A stretch of 64,000 nt of DNA, taken from NCBI GenBank assembly GCA_903835255.1, contig CAILMI010000014.1:1-64000 (forward strand), given 5' to 3'. Position 1 is the stretch's first letter, and every line of letters starts with the position of its first letter. Positions 26,321-33,955 of the stretch are shown here, one piece after another. Source of the stretch: an uncultured Verrucomicrobia subdivision 3 bacterium (lineage in GTDB: Bacteria; Verrucomicrobiota; Verrucomicrobiia; Limisphaerales; UBA11358). The translations under genes and the position numbers were made by a program. The notes below the pieces were generated by a model, which worked only from the letters and a program-made list of their open reading frames with translations, was not told the origin of the DNA and did no database searches.

Positions 26321-27763
26321 ATGCAAATGCTAAAAGATTACCGGGACAAGTCTGGATTTGACGAAATGGTCGATGGAAAAAATCGCGTTCGTTCGCATTA
26401 CGAGAAGTTTTTCAATCTGTTTAGTGGTCTGACGCCGGCTGAATTTGAAGCCAAGCGGCAGGCAGTGGATATGGCATTTCTGCGCCAGGGTGTCACTTTC
26501 AATGTCTATGGAGATGCGGCAGGGGCGGAAAAAGTTTTCCCGTTTGACCTGCTGCCGCGCATCATTCCCGCCAAGCAATGGGAGCACCTCGAGCGCGGCC
26601 TGGCGCAGCGCATTGCGGCTCTGAATCTGTTTCTGCACGATGTTTACCACGAACAGAAAATTTTAAAGGATGGCGTCATTCCGGAATACTACGTCCTCTC
26701 GGCGCGCCATTTTCGTCGGGAGTTCGTCAATTTCGAAGTGCCTAAAGGCATCTACATCCATGTCTGCGGGACGGATTTGATACGGGACGACAAGGGCGAC
26801 TATCTGGTGCTCGAGGACAACGGGCGCTGCCCGTCGGGAGTGAGCTATGTCCTGGAGAATCGGAGGGCCCTGAAACGGGCGTTCCCCCAGATGTTTGAAC
26901 AGATCGGTGTCCGCCCGGTCGACAATTATCCTCAAGAGCTTTTAAAGTCCCTCCAATACATTGCCCCTGCCGGCGTGGCAGATCCGACGGTGGTGGTGCT
27001 GACTCCGGGCGCGTACAATAGCGCTTATTTTGAACACACCTACCTGGCAAAGCAGATGGGGATAGAAATTGTGGAGGGCCGAGACTTGTTTGTCCGCGAC
27101 TCCCGCGTGTTCATGCGCACCACCAAGGGGCCGCAGCCCGTGCATGTGATTTACCGGCGCATTGACGACGACTTCATTGATCCGACAGTTTTTCGTCGGG
27201 ACTCAATGCTGGGAGTGCCGGGGCTAGTCCACGCGTATCGCGCCGGCAACGTCTCTCTGGCCAACTCGATCGGGACCGGCCTGGCGGATGACAAGGTGAT
27301 GTACTATTTCGTGCCGCGCATGATCCGATACTACCTGGATCAGGAGCCGATCCTGCCGAACGTACCGACTTATCTCGCCAGCGAGGAAAAAGATCTCAAA
27401 TACATCCTCGAAAATCTTCCAAGCCTGGTCGTTAAGGCGGCCAATGAGTCGGGCGGATACGGCATGTTGATGGGCCCCAAGGCGTCGAAGGATGAAATTG
27501 AGAAGTTTAGGGAACTCATTATCGCCGATCCCCGCAACTACATCGCGCAGCCCATGATTTTTCTATCGCAGCATCCGACGTATTCCGATGACCACTTTGA
27601 TGGTCGCCATGTGGATTTGCGCCCGTTCATTTTATCCGGCGAGCGCACCACCATCATTTCCGGGGGGCTCACGCGGGTGGCGCTTCGCAAGGGGTCGCTC
27701 GTGGTCAATTCGTCGCAGGGGGGCGGGAGCAAAGATACCTGGGTGTTATACGGTGAGGAATAA
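26321..27763 (+). CDS. Circularly permuted ATP-grasp protein
   Basis: The 480-residue protein belongs to the circularly permuted ATP-grasp family (CP_ATPgrasp, formerly DUF404/407). Recognisable parts are [20 protein letters not shown], the [20 protein letters not shown] block, an [20 protein letters not shown] segment, and [17 protein letters not shown] near the C-terminus, which is the nucleotide-binding loop. ATP-grasp enzymes make amide bonds through acyl phosphates, so a peptide ligation or modification role is inferred. Two downstream genes, alpha-E and transglutaminase, complete the cassette. ATG 26321 or 26327 could be the start. Confidence 0.9.
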
Positions 27764-27791
27764 TGAAACAAATGAAATCTGAAACAGGACC

Positions 27792-28835
27792 ATGTTAAGC
27801 CGCGTCGCCCATTCGCTTTACTGGATGGCTCGCTACATCGAGCGAGCTGAAAACATCGCTCGCATTGTCGATGTCAACCTCCAGCTGTTGCTGGACATTC
27901 GTCACATTGATGAAAGGCGGCATATTGCCTGCTGGCTCTCGATTGTTCAGGCCACTGGCGAGGAGGAGTCGTTTTTTAAGCTGCATGCCCAGGCCAGCCG
28001 CGCTGCGGTGACCGAATTTCTAGTGTTTCAGCCGGAGAATTCGAATTCCATCGTTCAGTCCATCTACCAGGCGCGGGAAAATGCCCGCATGGTACGGGAC
28101 CAGATCACACTGGAACTCTGGGAGGAACTCAACCGGCTTTATCTTTTTCTGAGGTCTCCGTCGGCACGGGATGTCTGGCGGCGCAGCCCGTCGGATTTTT
28201 TTCAGGAGGTGAAATCCAGTTCGCTTCATATCATCGGGATTGTCAATGCCACGCTCATCCACAATGAAGGATGGTGGATTGTGCAGGCCGGGCAGTTTCT
28301 GGAGCGGGCGGACAAGACCACCCGCATTTTGGATGTGCGTGGACAGGAGTTACCGGTGGGCGCTGTTTCTGAGCGCATCAGTCCTGAGGCAGCGCTCGAA
28401 TGGACCGCCGTCCTGCGCTCCTGCAGCGCCTGGGACGCGTATCGATCCATTCACAGCTCGGATATCCACCTCCACCGCGTGGCTGAATTTTTGATCCTCA
28501 ACGATCATTTTCCTCGGTCCGTCCGTTTTTGTGTCGCCGAATTGAACCGGGCGCTTAGAAGCCTTTCCGGGGTGGCTGAAGGGCGATTTGTCAACGAGGC
28601 GGAAAAGCTGACCGGACGCTTTTTGGCGGAGCTGCAATTTAGCTCGGTCGAGGACATCTTCGAGGTCGGCTTGCACCAGTACTTGGACCAGGCACAGAGC
28701 AAATTTAACTCCATCGGCACGGCGATATTTAATTCCTATATTTTCCAGCCGTTTGGCACTGTTGGAAAAGAATTCCTGGTGCAGCAGGAGGAACAGCAGC
28801 AACAGGGCTGCCGAGGTCTTTTCCAATCCCTTTAA
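27792..28835 (+). CDS. Alpha-E domain protein
   Basis: The 347-residue, mostly helical protein begins MLSRVAHSLYWMARYIERAE, the conserved opening of the alpha-E (DUF403) family. A second conserved part is the helical pair with LILNDHFPRSVRFCVAELNR. The C-terminus ends with EFLVQQEEQQQQG, a Glu/Gln-rich tail. Its molecular role is unknown; it is almost always encoded next to circularly permuted ATP-grasp proteins, and has been proposed to help make or carry a peptide product. It follows the ATP-grasp gene by 28 nt. Confidence 0.9.
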   Translation: MLSRVAHSLYWMARYIERAENIARIVDVNLQLLLDIRHIDERRHIACWLSIVQATGEEESFFKLHAQASRAAVTEFLVFQPENSNSIVQSIYQARENARMVRDQITLELWEELNRLYLFLRSPSARDVWRRSPSDFFQEVKSSSLHIIGIVNATLIHNEGWWIVQAGQFLERADKTTRILDVRGQELPVGAVSERISPEAALEWTAVLRSCSAWDAYRSIHSSDIHLHRVAEFLILNDHFPRSVRFCVAELNRALRSLSGVAEGRFVNEAEKLTGRFLAELQFSSVEDIFEVGLHQYLDQAQSKFNSIGTAIFNSYIFQPFGTVGKEFLVQQEEQQQQGCRGLFQSL

Positions 28836-29060
28836 TCTCTTGAGGATGTCGTGCTCCACTGGATTTTCTTCGCCCGGTTCAATCCGGTATCCTGCAAATT
28901 GCCGGGCCGAAGAGCGCACCCTCCCTCCCCAAGCAGGGCGGCGCTCGCTTGCAATTGCGAAGAGCCCTTGTGCGGGTTTGCCCTCCATCGAATGGGGCCG
29001 GGAACGGCGATCCAGGATTATAAAAACCGGCTCGGCGGGGGCGCTTCTTTCAATGATTGA

Positions 29061-29891
29061 ATGAAATTTGATATCCTGCATCGCACCCGTTACACATACG
29101 CGTCCCTTGTGTGTGACAGTTTTAATGACGTCCGCCTCGAGCCGCCTTCGATCCCCGAGCAGACCGTGGAGTCCTTTCTCCTCCGGGTGCTTCCTGCCGT
29201 TCGCCTGAGGCATTATACCGATTTTTATTCCAACCGCGTTCATCACTTTGAGATAGCCGAGGCGCATAGCTATCTTCTCATTGAAAGCCAGTGCCGCATC
29301 ATCACCCATTGGCCCGGTGCCATCGCGCGGGACGCCCTCGTTTACCCGCTCGCCAAAATCGCCTCGGCAGCCCATGTGGAGCGCTGCTTTGATTTTTTAC
29401 AGGCCAGCCGCTATGTCGAATTAGAGGCTGGCGCCTGGCGGCTGGCTCTGGACGCCATCGATGGACTCAGTGACGCCTGGCAGGCGGTTCTGGCTCTCAT
29501 GGAATTCACCCACAGTTTTTTGAGGTATGAGCCAAACTCCACGCACGTCCACACTCACATGCGGGATGTGATCCAGGACCGCCGCGGCGTCTGCCAGGAT
29601 TTCGCCCACTTGTTGATCGGTCTTTGCCGCAGCGTCAAAATTCCGGCGCGCTACGTCAGCGGGTATCTCGCCACGGAAACCGCCAGCGCCACCCATGCGT
29701 GGGTGGAGGTGTTCGTTCCAGGAATCGGATGGCGCGCGCTCGATCCCACCCACAACCGGCAGCTGGATGAAGCCTACGTGAAAATAGGCCATGGGCGGGA
29801 TTACAGCGACGTCCCTCCCGTCTGTGGTAATTATCGGGGCACCCTGGAGCGCACGATGAAGGTCGAGGTCAAAATTAACCCGGTCACCTGA
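29061..29891 (+). CDS. Transglutaminase-like peptidase-fold protein
   Basis: The 276-residue protein has the bacterial transglutaminase-like N-terminal domain (residues 1-85, MKFDILHRTRYTYAS) followed by the papain-like core. The catalytic triad is visible: C178 in RRGVCQDFAH, H212 in SATHAWVEV and D228 in ALDPTH. This family includes proteases and amide-bond-forming enzymes. It is separated from the alpha-E gene by 225 bp containing no clear gene, so the operon is somewhat looser here. An 11-bp repeat that covers its stop codon follows. Confidence 0.9.
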   Translation: MKFDILHRTRYTYASLVCDSFNDVRLEPPSIPEQTVESFLLRVLPAVRLRHYTDFYSNRVHHFEIAEAHSYLLIESQCRIITHWPGAIARDALVYPLAKIASAAHVERCFDFLQASRYVELEAGAWRLALDAIDGLSDAWQAVLALMEFTHSFLRYEPNSTHVHTHMRDVIQDRRGVCQDFAHLLIGLCRSVKIPARYVSGYLATETASATHAWVEVFVPGIGWRALDPTHNRQLDEAYVKIGHGRDYSDVPPVCGNYRGTLERTMKVEVKINPVT

Positions 29892-29958: not shown

Positions 29959-31122
29959 TTAAGGGAACAAGCTGATTATGTGGGCCGCCGCGCGGCCGGC
30001 CGCACCGGGTGCGCCCAGCGTGGTGATGATTTGGGCGAGCTGAGATTGAATATGGGTCCGGCGGGATTTGTCTTGCAGCAATTCCAGCGCGGCCTTCGCT
30101 AGGTGTTCCGGCGTGGCATCATTTTGAATGAACTCTGGGTACACTGTCTTTCCTGCCAGAAGATTCGGCATCGTCAGGGAGTTTACGGTGATCAGGCGCC
30201 GGGCGATTTGATAAGTGAGCCAGGAGGTTTTATAGAGGGTGATCGTCGGCACGCCGAAGAACGCGCATTCCATGGTCACCGTCCCCGTGGAGGCGAGGGC
30301 GAGATCTGATTCAGCCAGGGCCCAGGGCAGCTCGCCGACCTGGATTTCCAGGGTTGCCCCGAGCGACTTTGCCAGTTTCACCAGCGCGGGGTTGGGTAAA
30401 ACCATTTTCGCCCTCACCCCGGGCAATGTTTCACGGATGGTCTTGAGAGTTTCAAGCATCACCGGCAAATGCCGCTGCAATTCACTTTTCCGGCTCCCCG
30501 GCAAAAGGAGGATTTGAGAGGGCCGATTTTCAGAGGCCGGAAGTTCTGGTTCCCGGCGCGCTGCCAGTAAGTGGTCGGTCCCAAATCTCCCGATCATGGG
30601 ATGGCCGACAAATTCCACGCGCAACTTTGGGACGCGTTGGGCGTACCAGGCCTGCTCAAAAGGAAAAATGCTCAGAAGCAGGTCGTAGTCCCGGGCGAGC
30701 GTGTTCGCGCGCCGGGGACGCGATGCCCAGACCTGCGGGGAGACGAACTGGATAATTTTCGGGTCCCACTGGGAGAAGGGATTGGCGCGGACGTAAGCTT
30801 TTATCGCCTGGCCAAAGCGCAGGTTGAATCCTCCGAAATCCACGCCGATGATGACATCCGGCTTGCGCTCCATCGCCATCGCCAGCAATTCATGAAACAG
30901 CCGGCGGAACTTTAAAATATTTTTCAGCACGTCGGTGATTCCCACCACGGAGTGCTGGGTCAAGTCGAACGCCAGTTCCACGCCGGCAGCCGCCATCTTG
31001 GGGCCGCCGGCACCGAGGAAGCGGGCATCGGGCAACGTGTCGCGCAAGGCGGATACCAGTTCTGCGGCCAGCAGGTCCCCGCTTGCCTCGCCGGCGATGA
31101 GCATGACGGATTTTGGCTTCAC
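29959..31122 (-). CDS. lpxB: Lipid-A-disaccharide synthase
   Basis: The 387-residue protein is LpxB (GT19), which joins UDP-2,3-diacylglucosamine and lipid X at the inner membrane to form the lipid A disaccharide. Diagnostic parts are the N-terminal MLIAGEASGDLLAAELV, GVELAFDLTQHSVVGITDVL, the DVIIGVDFGGFNLR strand, LLPGSRKSELQRHLPVML and LASTGTVTMECAFFGVPTITLYK. It shows the organism makes lipid A. The start overlaps the upstream dehydrogenase gene stop by 4 nt, so the two are translationally coupled. Confidence 0.95.
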   Translation of the reverse strand: MKPKSVMLIAGEASGDLLAAELVSALRDTLPDARFLGAGGPKMAAAGVELAFDLTQHSVVGITDVLKNILKFRRLFHELLAMAMERKPDVIIGVDFGGFNLRFGQAIKAYVRANPFSQWDPKIIQFVSPQVWASRPRRANTLARDYDLLLSIFPFEQAWYAQRVPKLRVEFVGHPMIGRFGTDHLLAARREPELPASENRPSQILLLPGSRKSELQRHLPVMLETLKTIRETLPGVRAKMVLPNPALVKLAKSLGATLEIQVGELPWALAESDLALASTGTVTMECAFFGVPTITLYKTSWLTYQIARRLITVNSLTMPNLLAGKTVYPEFIQNDATPEHLAKAALELLQDKSRRTHIQSQLAQIITTLGAPGAAGRAAAHIISLFP

Positions 31123-32165
31123 GTTGGGGTTGGCGTGGGGAGGCTCTGAATCTGCCGGGTGATTTCAAAGGCCAGATCCAGCGCGAGCTTGGCGGAGGCG
31201 CCGCTCACCAGCGGGGTCTGTCGCTGATGAATGCATTCGACAAAATGCTGCAGCTCGAGCTTGAGCGGCTCGTCCTTGGCAATCGGCACGGGTTCGCGCA
31301 CGATTTTCTTGCCGGCAAACTGGCTGACGATGGCCGAGTCTTTTCCAATGCCCAGCTTGGCCGCCAGCACCTTCTTCAGCAGCGAACTCTCCTCCTCGCC
31401 ATCGCGTGCGACGCGATAAATGAACCCCTCCTGCACGCGGTAATCCAGCGAGATGTAGCAGGGGTGGGTGGGACCGCTGAAAACGCGGATCTTCCGCATC
31501 CGTTCCGGGCTGACGCGGCTGGCGGTGAGGTTGGCCACGCAGCCATTGGCAAAACGCAGGCGCACATTGGCGATATCCTCGCTCCGGCTCAACACCGGGA
31601 TGCCCACTCCGTCGATGCTCGTCACCGGGGATTTGACGAACGCTAGAACGATATCCAGATCGTGGATCATCAGGTCCAGCACCACGCCAATATCGGTGGA
31701 GCGGGCGGGGAAGGGCGACAGGCGGTGGCATTCAATAAACTTCGGCTCGGTGGCGACGGATTGGAGGAACGTAAAAACCGGATTGAAGCGCTCGACGTGT
31801 CCGACTTGGAGGACGCAATGGGTCTGCTGCGCAATCTGGACCAGTTCGGCAGCCTGTTCGGAATGATCGGTCATCGGTTTCTCGACCAGCACGTGTTTGC
31901 CTTGCAGGAGCAATTGCTTGGCGATATCGAAATGCGTGCTGGTGGGGGTGACGATATTGAGCGCGTCGCTGGCGGCGGCGGCGGCGGCGATGGAGGGGAA
32001 CACGTGGAGGCGATGTTTCTCGGCAATCTTGCGGGCCGTTTCCGGGTGCGCGTCGTATATCCCGGTGAGCTCCACCTGGCCGGCGGCGTGGAGTTCGGAG
32101 TAGATGCGGGTGTGATGCTGCCCGAGCGAGCCGGTGCCGAGAACGGCGACTTTGATCTTTGCCAT
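31119..32165 (-). CDS. Gfo/Idh/MocA-family dehydrogenase, coupled to lpxB
   Basis: The 348-residue protein has an NAD(P)-binding Rossmann fold (VAVLGTGSLGQHHTRIY) and the EKP motif (HVLVEKPMTDH) of the Gfo/Idh/MocA family, and the C-terminal GVVLDLMIHDLDIVLAFV with the catalytic-region HDLD. Family members oxidise or reduce sugars. It is encoded just upstream of lpxB with a 4-nt overlap. In Acidithiobacillus ferrooxidans a family member, GnnA, lies between lpxA and lpxB and oxidises UDP-GlcNAc at C3 so that a 3-amino sugar lipid A can be made. GnnA function is an inference here; no GnnB-type aminotransferase is in the window. Confidence 0.8.
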   Translation of the reverse strand: MAKIKVAVLGTGSLGQHHTRIYSELHAAGQVELTGIYDAHPETARKIAEKHRLHVFPSIAAAAAASDALNIVTPTSTHFDIAKQLLLQGKHVLVEKPMTDHSEQAAELVQIAQQTHCVLQVGHVERFNPVFTFLQSVATEPKFIECHRLSPFPARSTDIGVVLDLMIHDLDIVLAFVKSPVTSIDGVGIPVLSRSEDIANVRLRFANGCVANLTASRVSPERMRKIRVFSGPTHPCYISLDYRVQEGFIYRVARDGEEESSLLKKVLAAKLGIGKDSAIVSQFAGKKIVREPVPIAKDEPLKLELQHFVECIHQRQTPLVSGASAKLALDLAFEITRQIQSLPTPTPT

Positions 32166-32342: not shown

Positions 32343-32981
32343 GTGCCAATTTTCAGTTACCTCCTCACGGCGCTCGCCGCGTATTTGCTCGGATCCATTC
32401 CCACCGGCTACCTCGTGGCCCGGGCGAGGGGGGTCGATATCCGCACGGTGGGCAGCGGCAACATCGGGGCGACTAATGCCCTGCGAGTGCTGGGCAAGTC
32501 GGCGGGAATCACGGTTTTGGTTCTAGACGCGCTGAAAGGTTTTATCGCCGTGGCCTGGCTCGCAGAGGGTTTGCCGCCGCTTTTCAATCTTTCGATCGCC
32601 GATCCGCAAGCCCACCAAGTCCTCGCCGGCGTCTGCGCGGTGCTGGGGCACAATTATACCTGCTGGCTGAGATTTAAGGGGGGCAAGGGCATTGCGACAA
32701 CCGCCGGGGTGTATCTGGCGCTGGCGCCGCTGCCGCTGCTGATCGCCTTGGGAGTCTTCCTCTTGGGTCTGCTTCTGACCCGCTACGTTTCCGTCGGATC
32801 CATCGCGGCGGCGGTGGCATTGCCGGTCGCGGTATGGATTCTCAAGCCGCACGCGATTCTGCTCGCCGTCGCCACCACGGCGCTGGGGGTGCTGGCTATT
32901 TATAAACATGCCGGCAACATTCAGCGGCTTCTGGCGGGGACGGAAAGCCGTATGGGCAAAAAAACACAGGACGCGAAATGA
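32343..32981 (+). CDS. plsY: Glycerol-3-phosphate acyltransferase PlsY
   Basis: The 212-residue membrane protein has five or so helices and the three PlsY motifs: SIPTGYLVARARGVDIR with GSGNIGATNALR, LRFKGGKGIATTAG, and a later region GNIQRLLAGTE. It transfers an acyl group from acyl-phosphate to glycerol-3-phosphate in phospholipid synthesis. The start is a GTG. Its stop overlaps gpsA by 4 nt, an apt pairing because GpsA supplies the glycerol-3-phosphate substrate. Confidence 0.94.
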   Translation: MPIFSYLLTALAAYLLGSIPTGYLVARARGVDIRTVGSGNIGATNALRVLGKSAGITVLVLDALKGFIAVAWLAEGLPPLFNLSIADPQAHQVLAGVCAVLGHNYTCWLRFKGGKGIATTAGVYLALAPLPLLIALGVFLLGLLLTRYVSVGSIAAAVALPVAVWILKPHAILLAVATTALGVLAIYKHAGNIQRLLAGTESRMGKKTQDAK

Positions 32982-33955
32982 AGATCACGGTGCTTGGCGC
33001 CGGCGCGTGGGGCACTGCGCTGGCCAAAATTTTACTCGAGAACGACCACGCAGTGACGGTCTGGAATACCACTGCCGGTGTTTTAGAGGAGCTCCGGCAC
33101 GGGCGCAATGAACGGTATCTGCCGGGCGTGTCTCTGCCGACCAGCTGGCTTCCGGAACCAGATTTCGTCCGAGCCATCGCCGGCGCGGAATGCGTGGTGC
33201 TGGCGGTTCCGTCACACGCATTTCGCGCCATGGCGGCGAAGCTGGAGGGTCATCCTGGAATCCTGGTGAGTGTAACCAAGGGGATTGAATTTGAAACGGG
33301 CGAGACCATGAGCCGTATTCTGGCCGAACGGGCCCCCGCCGAACGCGTGGCAGCCCTTTCGGGTCCCAGCTTTGCCCGCGAAGTCGCGCGGGGGATTCCC
33401 ACTGCGGTCGTGTGCGCGAGCGCAAGCGATGCCACCACTCGAACGCTGCAGGGGCTTTTTCATCGCCCGGAATTCCGGGTCTATCGCAGCACCGATATCC
33501 TGGGGGTGGAATATGGCGGCGCCTTGAAAAATGTCATCGCCATCGCCGCGGGCGTGAGCGACGGGCTCGGCTACGGAGACAACACCAAGGCAGGATTGGT
33601 CACGCGCGCGCTATCCGAAATCCGGCGTCTCGGGGTGGCGTGCGGCGCGCAGCTGGAAACGTTCAATGGCTTGAGCGGACTCGGGGATCTGATGTTGACG
33701 TGCTTCTCACCGCAAAGCCGCAACCGTCAACTGGGGGAGCGGCTGGGGCGTGGGGAAAGCTTGGAAGCCATCCAAGCTTCGCACCCGAAATTGGCGGAGG
33801 GGTATCCTACGACGCGCTCCGTCCACCGGCTGTCGCGGCAGAAAAATGTGGCGACGCCGATCATGGATGAAGTCCATGCCATGCTTTACGGGGCAAAGGA
33901 TTCCCGGCAGGCGGTTCAGGATTTGATTTCACGGGCGTTCAAGGCGGAAGATTGA
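32978..33955 (+). CDS. gpsA: Glycerol-3-phosphate dehydrogenase [NAD(P)+]
   Basis: The 325-residue enzyme reduces dihydroxyacetone phosphate to sn-glycerol-3-phosphate. The N-terminal dinucleotide motif GAGAWGTALAKILLEN, the VSVTKGIEFETGETMS segment, LSGPSFAREVARGIPTAVV, and the substrate/catalytic block YGGALKNVIAIAAGVSDG with Lys are all present. The C-terminal helical part ends with VATPIMDEVHAMLYG. It is translationally coupled to plsY. Confidence 0.95.
   Translation: MKITVLGAGAWGTALAKILLENDHAVTVWNTTAGVLEELRHGRNERYLPGVSLPTSWLPEPDFVRAIAGAECVVLAVPSHAFRAMAAKLEGHPGILVSVTKGIEFETGETMSRILAERAPAERVAALSGPSFAREVARGIPTAVVCASASDATTRTLQGLFHRPEFRVYRSTDILGVEYGGALKNVIAIAAGVSDGLGYGDNTKAGLVTRALSEIRRLGVACGAQLETFNGLSGLGDLMLTCFSPQSRNRQLGERLGRGESLEAIQASHPKLAEGYPTTRSVHRLSRQKNVATPIMDEVHAMLYGAKDSRQAVQDLISRAFKAED

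Follow-up and report, generated by a model that had tools for sequence, protein, structure and literature searches.

A GnnA relative coupled to lpxB and a second LpxA suggest hybrid amide/ester lipid A in an uncultured verrucomicrobial bacterium

An operon of two genes, gnnA for a relative of UDP-N-acetylglucosamine (UDP-GlcNAc) 3-dehydrogenase and lpxB for lipid-A-disaccharide synthase, was analysed in 64,000 nucleotides of contig CAILMI010000014.1 from an uncultured Verrucomicrobia subdivision 3 bacterium (GCA_903835255.1); this whole stretch of DNA is called the window. Together with an unlinked aminotransferase and two LpxA proteins encoded elsewhere in the genome, the operon rather likely leads to a hybrid lipid A that contains both amide and ester linkages. 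This reading starts from what was observed in the genomes, namely the relationship to GnnA, the operon with lpxB, the aminotransferase candidates, and a second LpxA with its phylum-wide co-occurrence with gnnA; every step from there to chemistry is one that we infer from sequence.

To judge from its family, GnnA would oxidise the 3-hydroxyl of UDP-GlcNAc with NAD+ to a 3-ketone. The ketone would next be aminated to the 3-amino sugar UDP-GlcNAc3N by a DegT/DnrJ/EryC1 aminotransferase encoded away from the operon, most likely that of contig C64. The LpxA encoded after an lpxC-fabZ fusion on contig C46 (LpxA1) would act on UDP-GlcNAc and give an ester at position 3, and the stand-alone LpxA of contig C34 (LpxA2) would be devoted to UDP-GlcNAc3N and give an amide. 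From these products LpxC, LpxD and LpxB would assemble a disaccharide with GlcN3N as one or both of its sugars.

Lipid A chemistry governs outer-membrane stability and the immune recognition of a bacterium, and the phylum, to which Akkermansia also belongs, inhabits soil, water and the gut. If the proposed pathway is correct, much of the phylum carries amide-containing lipid A, with the exception of lineages such as a genus that lacks gnnA. A second LpxA would then be a simple genomic marker of amide-containing lipid A, and assays tuned to ester-type lipid A could misjudge members of the phylum.

The gnnA-lpxB operon and its spread

The genome comprises 3.17 Mb in 70 contigs (97.46% complete), and the window is part of contig C14. 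On the minus strand gnnA (31119..32165, 348 aa, ATG start) is followed by lpxB (29959..31122, 387 aa, GTG start). The two genes share the four nucleotides GTGA (31119..31122, minus strand): the lpxB start codon GTG occupies 31122-31120 and the gnnA stop codon TGA 31121-31119. This overlap had been reported in the initial annotation and is borne out by the open reading frames and the minus-strand sequence; translational coupling through it is probable. LpxB scores 242.6 bits with TIGR00215 (cut-off 190.25) and is the only match to PF02684 in the genome (E 3.7e-79). The early lipid A pathway is otherwise present: C46 carries an lpxA gene after an LpxC-FabZ type fusion (PF03331, PF07977), and the genome also has lpxD and lpxK.

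The dehydrogenase belongs to the Gfo/Idh/MocA family (PF01408, E 2.7e-28; PF22725, E 5.5e-10). Its best sequence match in PDB is 7bvj, which is titled UDP-N-acetylglucosamine 3-dehydrogenase GnnA from Acidithiobacillus ferrooxidans (phmmer E 2e-51; second best 1.8e-17). The predicted structure (mean predicted local distance difference test score, pLDDT, 92.5) superposes on A. ferrooxidans GnnA (VIA) with Z 39.5 over 312 residues at 1.8 Å, and the next non-GnnA entry has Z 34.9. Foldseek likewise placed GnnA first (E 1.3e-33; next protein 1.6e-23). Lys96 (in the motif EKP), Asp164 and His168, which we take from the family to be the catalytic residues, are identical in all 111 aligned relatives, as are R148, R155, D197 and R217. 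The window protein shares fold, length range and catalytic residues with A. ferrooxidans GnnA (7bvj, 7bvk), with an identity of 40% over 232 aligned residues and 34% over the 312 structurally aligned ones. It differs in that no gnnB gene adjoins it, and it has an extra segment after approximately position 253 that is absent in most aligned relatives. Among named loci its closest relative, at 70% identity, belongs to a 'Verrucomicrobiales bacterium' (L112).

These results support the view that the dehydrogenase is a relative of GnnA and not just any Gfo/Idh protein, so the homology proposed in the initial annotation stands: GnnA is the top match in both sequence and fold, the catalytic residues are kept and the gene is linked to lpxB. 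The gene adjoining lpxB very probably encodes the first enzyme for placing an amine on the lipid A sugar, this activity being a prediction from sequence and modelled structure. Two other identities were considered and rejected. An ordinary sugar or inositol dehydrogenase is disfavoured by the wide gap with which GnnA leads in sequence and fold, and the equivalog of archaeal UDP-GlcNAc 3-dehydrogenases (NF040723) gave 191.9 bits against a curated cut-off of 450.

Of the 145 phylum genomes sampled, the window genome among them, 101 have a relative of gnnA at E <= 1e-30. Among the 29 best-scoring of 100 other phylum loci, lpxB lies directly downstream of gnnA in 26 and is not within 1.5 kb in three (L019, L028, L029); the pairing is therefore not due to chance. 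A wider scan confirmed 571 gnnA loci, of which 80 named ones were kept, none titled Acidithiobacillus or Leptospira. In 31 of these lpxB starts at most 400 nt after gnnA, 19 others have an aminotransferase gene downstream, and 30 have neither by these criteria, some of them being cut by contig ends. The gnnA-lpxB layout without gnnB is thus widespread and not specific to the window genome. In five named loci in which the aminotransferase is linked (L055, L062, L067, L071, L125) the order is lpxA-gnnA-gnnB-lpxB, so the window order is the same minus gnnB and minus lpxA. The linked operons of Geobacter (L067/L071), Methylobacter (L103), Thioalkalivibrio (L057) and Limnohabitans (L062) resemble the window in having a GnnA homologue upstream of lpxB, but carry an aminotransferase gene between the two, where the window has none. 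In the GnnA tree linked and unlinked genes do not separate into two clades; nothing was inferred from its root, because the four outgroup rows are very long and do not group together.

The four-nucleotide overlap of gnnA and lpxB recurs in a 0.9-Mb genome (G057). In this genome and in G036, a second one of the same size (loci L298 and L299 of G036 and G057), gnnA-lpxB stands beside genes which by eye resemble genes of the lysine and tryptophan pathways, and lpxI (PF06230, PF17930) lies upstream in L298.

Two types of LpxA and their co-occurrence with gnnA

The window genome has two genes with an LpxA C-terminal domain, one beside lpxC on C46 and one on C34 without other lpx genes nearby. Both proteins exceed the TIGR01852 cut-off of 231.05 bits, the C34 copy with 302.2. 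The latter has histidines at 122 and 125 (E. coli LpxA H125 is presumably the catalytic one). Its gene comes after accA (PF03255) and a phosphomannose isomerase gene (PF20511) in L015 6489-9586.

In the LpxA tree (124 rows, those of the phylum coming from 90 loci of about 224 matches; L291 contained none) the copies adjoining lpxC form one group (support 96, starred), which includes those of gnnA-less genomes and the C46 copy. The LpxA2 group (support 88) contains stand-alone copies including that of C34, one row from a gnnA-less genome (G079) and one named Methylococcaceae row. The stand-alone copies of a third group (support 99, starred) come from other families, many of which have a single lpxA. 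One row of this group (G141) is gnnA-less. In two genomes (G064, G070) the second lpxA is divergent beside gnnA.

Across the phylum, with genes counted by the same C-terminal domain, two lpxA genes were found in 82 of the 101 genomes with gnnA and in none of the 44 without it (43 have one and one has none). In a set of 40 near relatives that includes the window genome, gnnA is present in 39 and two lpxA in 37, and all 15 sampled genomes of one genus (g3) have no gnnA match and a single lpxA. By family (44 in total), gnnA and two lpxA are present throughout in 25, and 11 have neither gnnA nor a second lpxA in any genome. The remaining families comprise four with gnnA throughout and never two lpxA, three with gnnA throughout and two lpxA in some genomes, and one that is mixed. 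A Fisher test of gnnA against lpxA number gave p 2e-22, with kinship ignored.

Several observations weigh against the coupling of gnnA to LpxA2. Of the genomes with gnnA, 17 have one lpxA and two have none; several sampled genomes are incomplete drafts. After correction for kinship two independent supported pairs remain on starred branches, both mostly in the expected direction, and with this number a sign test cannot reach 0.05. The 0.9-Mb genomes G036 and G057 keep gnnA and an aminotransferase with LpxA1 alone; LpxA2 is therefore not essential for the use of UDP-GlcNAc3N. Conversely, G186 has two lpxA and an enzyme like that of C64 without a gnnA match, and in G079 (L246, family f31), for which no gnnA match at E <= 1e-30 was obtained, the sole lpxA falls in the LpxA2 group. 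In G079 the search may have overlooked a divergent gnnA; otherwise LpxA2 functions there in its absence. The association thus rests on few independent events, and a strict one-to-one link is contradicted by the exceptions. A duplication of lpxA in Geobacter sulfurreducens is mentioned in a 2010 survey, the excerpted part of which draws no link to gnnA (PMC3087551).

Residue differences between the two types were sought in 47 LpxA1 and 19 LpxA2 rows, from which three rows of the same part of the tree as LpxA2 (L246, L267, L121) were left out. They were compared with Leptospira LpxA, which we take to be selective for UDP-GlcNAc3N, its amine preference presumably being set by backbone orientation. 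At E. coli position 65 an aromatic residue is found in 47/47 LpxA1 and 0/19 LpxA2, and Leptospira has Gly. A total of 17 positions separate the two types, and at 33, 65, 67, 72, 76, 120 and 205 Leptospira shares the residue that prevails in LpxA2. In two Rhodocyclales gnnA-gnnB-lpxA loci (L051, L060) and in the gnnA-side copy of L078 the LpxA has His65 and Val67, and the other copy of L078 has Tyr65 and Ser67. Other comparisons point the opposite way: Leptospira LpxA agrees with LpxA1 at 156, 176 and 188, and the LpxAs of four linked gnnA-gnnB loci (L057, L087, L114, L125) have LpxA1-like Phe65/Ser67. For a difference in substrate between LpxA1 and LpxA2 the residue pattern is suggestive only. 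Pro72, before Gln73, was tried as a marker of amine selectivity (19/19 LpxA2, 0/47 LpxA1) and rejected because most of 33 named LpxAs also have it.

The position aligned with Leptospira K171 (E. coli 176) also distinguishes the types. It is Lys in 42/47 LpxA1 and Gly or Ala in 12/19 LpxA2; in the window genome it is Arg in LpxA1 (L014 10097-10864) and Ala in LpxA2 (L015 8789-9586). K171 is presumably a determinant of chain length in Leptospira, and the two LpxAs may thus differ in the length of the acyl chains they transfer.

Candidate aminotransferase partners

The initial annotation had counted the lack of an aminotransferase partner for GnnA in the genome as evidence against its proposal. 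Such a lack was not observed: two strong DegT-type aminotransferases are present (referred to by their contigs as C64 and C56), besides four weak matches. The search for GnnB proposed there therefore yielded a fair candidate, C64, but neither enzyme falls in the clade of operon-linked GnnBs. Against a profile built from 14 such GnnBs, C64 scores 461.8 bits over positions 1-361 of 364 and C56 385.1 bits; three gnnA-less genomes reached 222-224 bits. The best PDB rows for C64 are 7b0d, 2oga, QdtB (3frk) and WbpE (3nyu/3nu7), of which we take 2oga, QdtB and WbpE to be C3 sugar aminotransferases. The similarity of C64 to GnnB and to C3 sugar aminotransferases extends over its full length.

The genus is represented by 25 genomes, counting that of the window, and 23 of them encode an orthologue of C64 (>= 69% identity, near full length); of the remaining two, one has a partial orthologue and one, a 75% complete genome, has none. 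In the 0.9-Mb genomes G036 and G057, which both keep gnnA, the sole aminotransferase match at E <= 1e-50 comes from a stand-alone gene with 62% identity to C64. This gene has an S-adenosylmethionine synthetase region on one side and a GHMP kinase gene on the other, with no sugar cluster in the 16 kb viewed. Directly upstream of C64 in the window genome is a transporter gene, here named msbA-like because it falls below the MsbA cut-off of TIGR02203. In Flavobacterium amniphilum (G151) the GnnB-like gene is divergent from a Kdo-transferase gene. The surroundings of C64 relatives within the genus vary, and 6 of 20 viewed adjoin a gene like the fructose-bisphosphate aldolase gene confirmed in L324.

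The candidacy of C64 is weakened by a number of findings. In the aminotransferase trees the window genome contributes no orthologue to the clade of operon-linked GnnBs: 19 linked GnnBs form one group (support 98, starred, in the first tree and 92 in the second), and C64 lies outside it in its own group of four rows with G036, G140 and G152 (support 98, starred). Its identity to linked GnnBs (42-48%) is no better than that of other C3-type aminotransferases tested. The neighbouring transporter scores 537.9 bits against a TIGR02203 cut-off of 602, and of 26 loci whose aminotransferase is >= 69% identical only two (the window genome's own and L301) have an msbA hit directly upstream; in a further three (L302, L308, L317) it lies upstream at a distance of about 1 kb. 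Exosortase and sugar-transferase genes follow C64 downstream, its relative in G152 (73% identical) adjoins another Gfo/Idh gene and an epimerase-like gene, and a polysaccharide-export, glycosyltransferase or epimerase gene adjoins 3 of the 20 relatives viewed (L307, L325, L326). Over the whole phylum sample an aminotransferase match at E <= 1e-100 is present in 94 of 101 genomes with gnnA and 11 of 44 without it, which favours a partnership of the two enzymes; the seven gnnA-bearing genomes without a strong match and the 11 gnnA-less ones with one speak against it.

C64 is nevertheless a fair candidate for the GnnB of the window genome, given its conservation in the genus and its relative in the two 0.9-Mb genomes. 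C56 is less likely than C64 in view of its 385 bits and an epimerase-like neighbour, seen beside enzymes of its type in G000 and G118. Elsewhere in the phylum the partner of gnnA is likely represented by a separate group of 39 aminotransferase rows with support 94, of which all but one come from genomes that have gnnA. The trees were built from best-scoring hits only, with five gnnA-less rows in the second. The first tree left out L131, L139 and L143, which the second took in with X at any stop, and L128, L133 and L150 were dropped as duplicates.

The surroundings of these aminotransferases raise the question of whether the amino sugar is destined for lipid A. A true UDP-GlcNAc 3-dehydrogenase could supply a 3-amino sugar to a polysaccharide or glycoprotein, the proximity of lpxB being historical. 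The absence of GnnB from the operon agrees with this, as do the exosortase and sugar-transferase genes after C64 and the C3-type aminotransferases of G152 and G013, which both adjoin other Gfo/Idh genes. We consider it quite improbable, since the linkage of gnnA to lpxB is kept over many phyla, gnnA co-occurs with a second LpxA, and the two 0.9-Mb genomes retain gnnA-lpxB and their lone aminotransferase in the surroundings described above.

A GnnA that has no aminotransferase partner at all, and performs another redox step on a UDP-sugar or a lipid A intermediate, is very unlikely. No aminotransferase match was found beside gnnA in 30 phylum loci (1.5 kb flanks), lpxB follows directly in the 31 named loci given above, and three gnnA-bearing genomes have no match above 310 bits to the GnnB profile (G154, 267; G008, 292; G054, 304), all of which would suit an orphan enzyme. 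Against it, matches above 370 bits are present in 12 of 13 genomes from named loci with unlinked gnnA (G145-G157; G153 and G038 are one genome) and in 10 of 12 gnnA-bearing phylum genomes. An unlinked gnnB is also not unusual. According to excerpts of the published reports, gnnA and gnnB of M. loti are cited with distant gene numbers and are hence unlinked (PMC7663294), Granulibacter, an organism with GlcN3N, has named candidates at 37% and 39% identity (PMC8036547), and the genes are dispersed in Capnocytophaga canimorsus (PMC3342949).

A proposed hybrid lipid A in the phylum, and the flanks of the operon

The initial annotation had suggested that all primary acyl chains of the lipid A may be bound through amides. 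This is not favoured by the second lpxA, by the restriction of two lpxA to gnnA-bearing members of the 145 genomes, or by the example of C. canimorsus. As excerpted, the report on that species describes two lpxA, dispersed gnnA and gnnB, and a measured hybrid GlcN3N'-GlcN backbone (PMC3342949). The window genome is similar in its two lpxA and in its dispersed gnnA and candidate gnnB, so a hybrid lipid A is expected here too. C. canimorsus differs in belonging to another phylum and in having both lpxA in one operon with lpxC and lpxD, where the window genome has them on separate contigs. Within the phylum Akkermansia muciniphila provides a contrast, as its main lipid A species has two N-linked and two O-linked primary chains according to an excerpt of the study (PMC12527988). 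The genus g3, with its single lpxA and no gnnA match, may be Akkermansia. A search of open PMC papers found none with both gnnA and Verrucomicrobia; subscription journals were outside this search.

A wholly amide-linked lipid A would require that UDP-GlcNAc3N fully replaces UDP-GlcNAc and that acyl-chain length is all that distinguishes the two LpxAs. The presence of GnnA and its overlap with lpxB are compatible with this, and so is the difference at the K171-aligned position, presumably the chain-length determinant. The two reduced genomes that have gnnA and LpxA1 alone also fit, for LpxA1 can therefore probably use the amine. However, LpxA1-group enzymes are kept in nearly all sampled gnnA-less genomes, which should have only UDP-GlcNAc, and so these enzymes must accept the hydroxyl; moreover, the best two-lpxA parallel, as excerpted, makes a hybrid (PMC3342949). 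A fully amide-linked product is thus unlikely, and the lipid A is probably a hybrid of amide and ester, as judged from the gene content and the parallel in C. canimorsus.

The pattern may extend beyond the window genome, and the following wider account is put forward tentatively as a whole. Most of the phylum would make hybrid lipid A with two LpxAs that each specialise in one UDP-sugar, a division of labour that would be new for the phylum. GnnA coupled to LpxB, together with aminotransferases of at least two lineages, would feed these LpxAs, GnnB having been replaced within the phylum. The lineages would be the C64 group (the window genus, the two 0.9-Mb genomes and G140) and the group of about 39 rows elsewhere. 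Lineages that lost gnnA would have lost LpxA2 too and returned to ordinary ester-type lipid A.

In the window the operon is flanked on its gnnA side by plsY and gpsA (32343-33955, plus strand), which diverge from gnnA-lpxB. The Verrucomicrobiales locus L112 (8202-12270) keeps the same order of plsY, gpsA, gnnA and lpxB. Convergent on the lpxB end of the operon are genes for a circularly permuted ATP-grasp protein, an Alpha-E protein and a transglutaminase (26321-29891, plus strand; PF14403, PF04168, PF01841).

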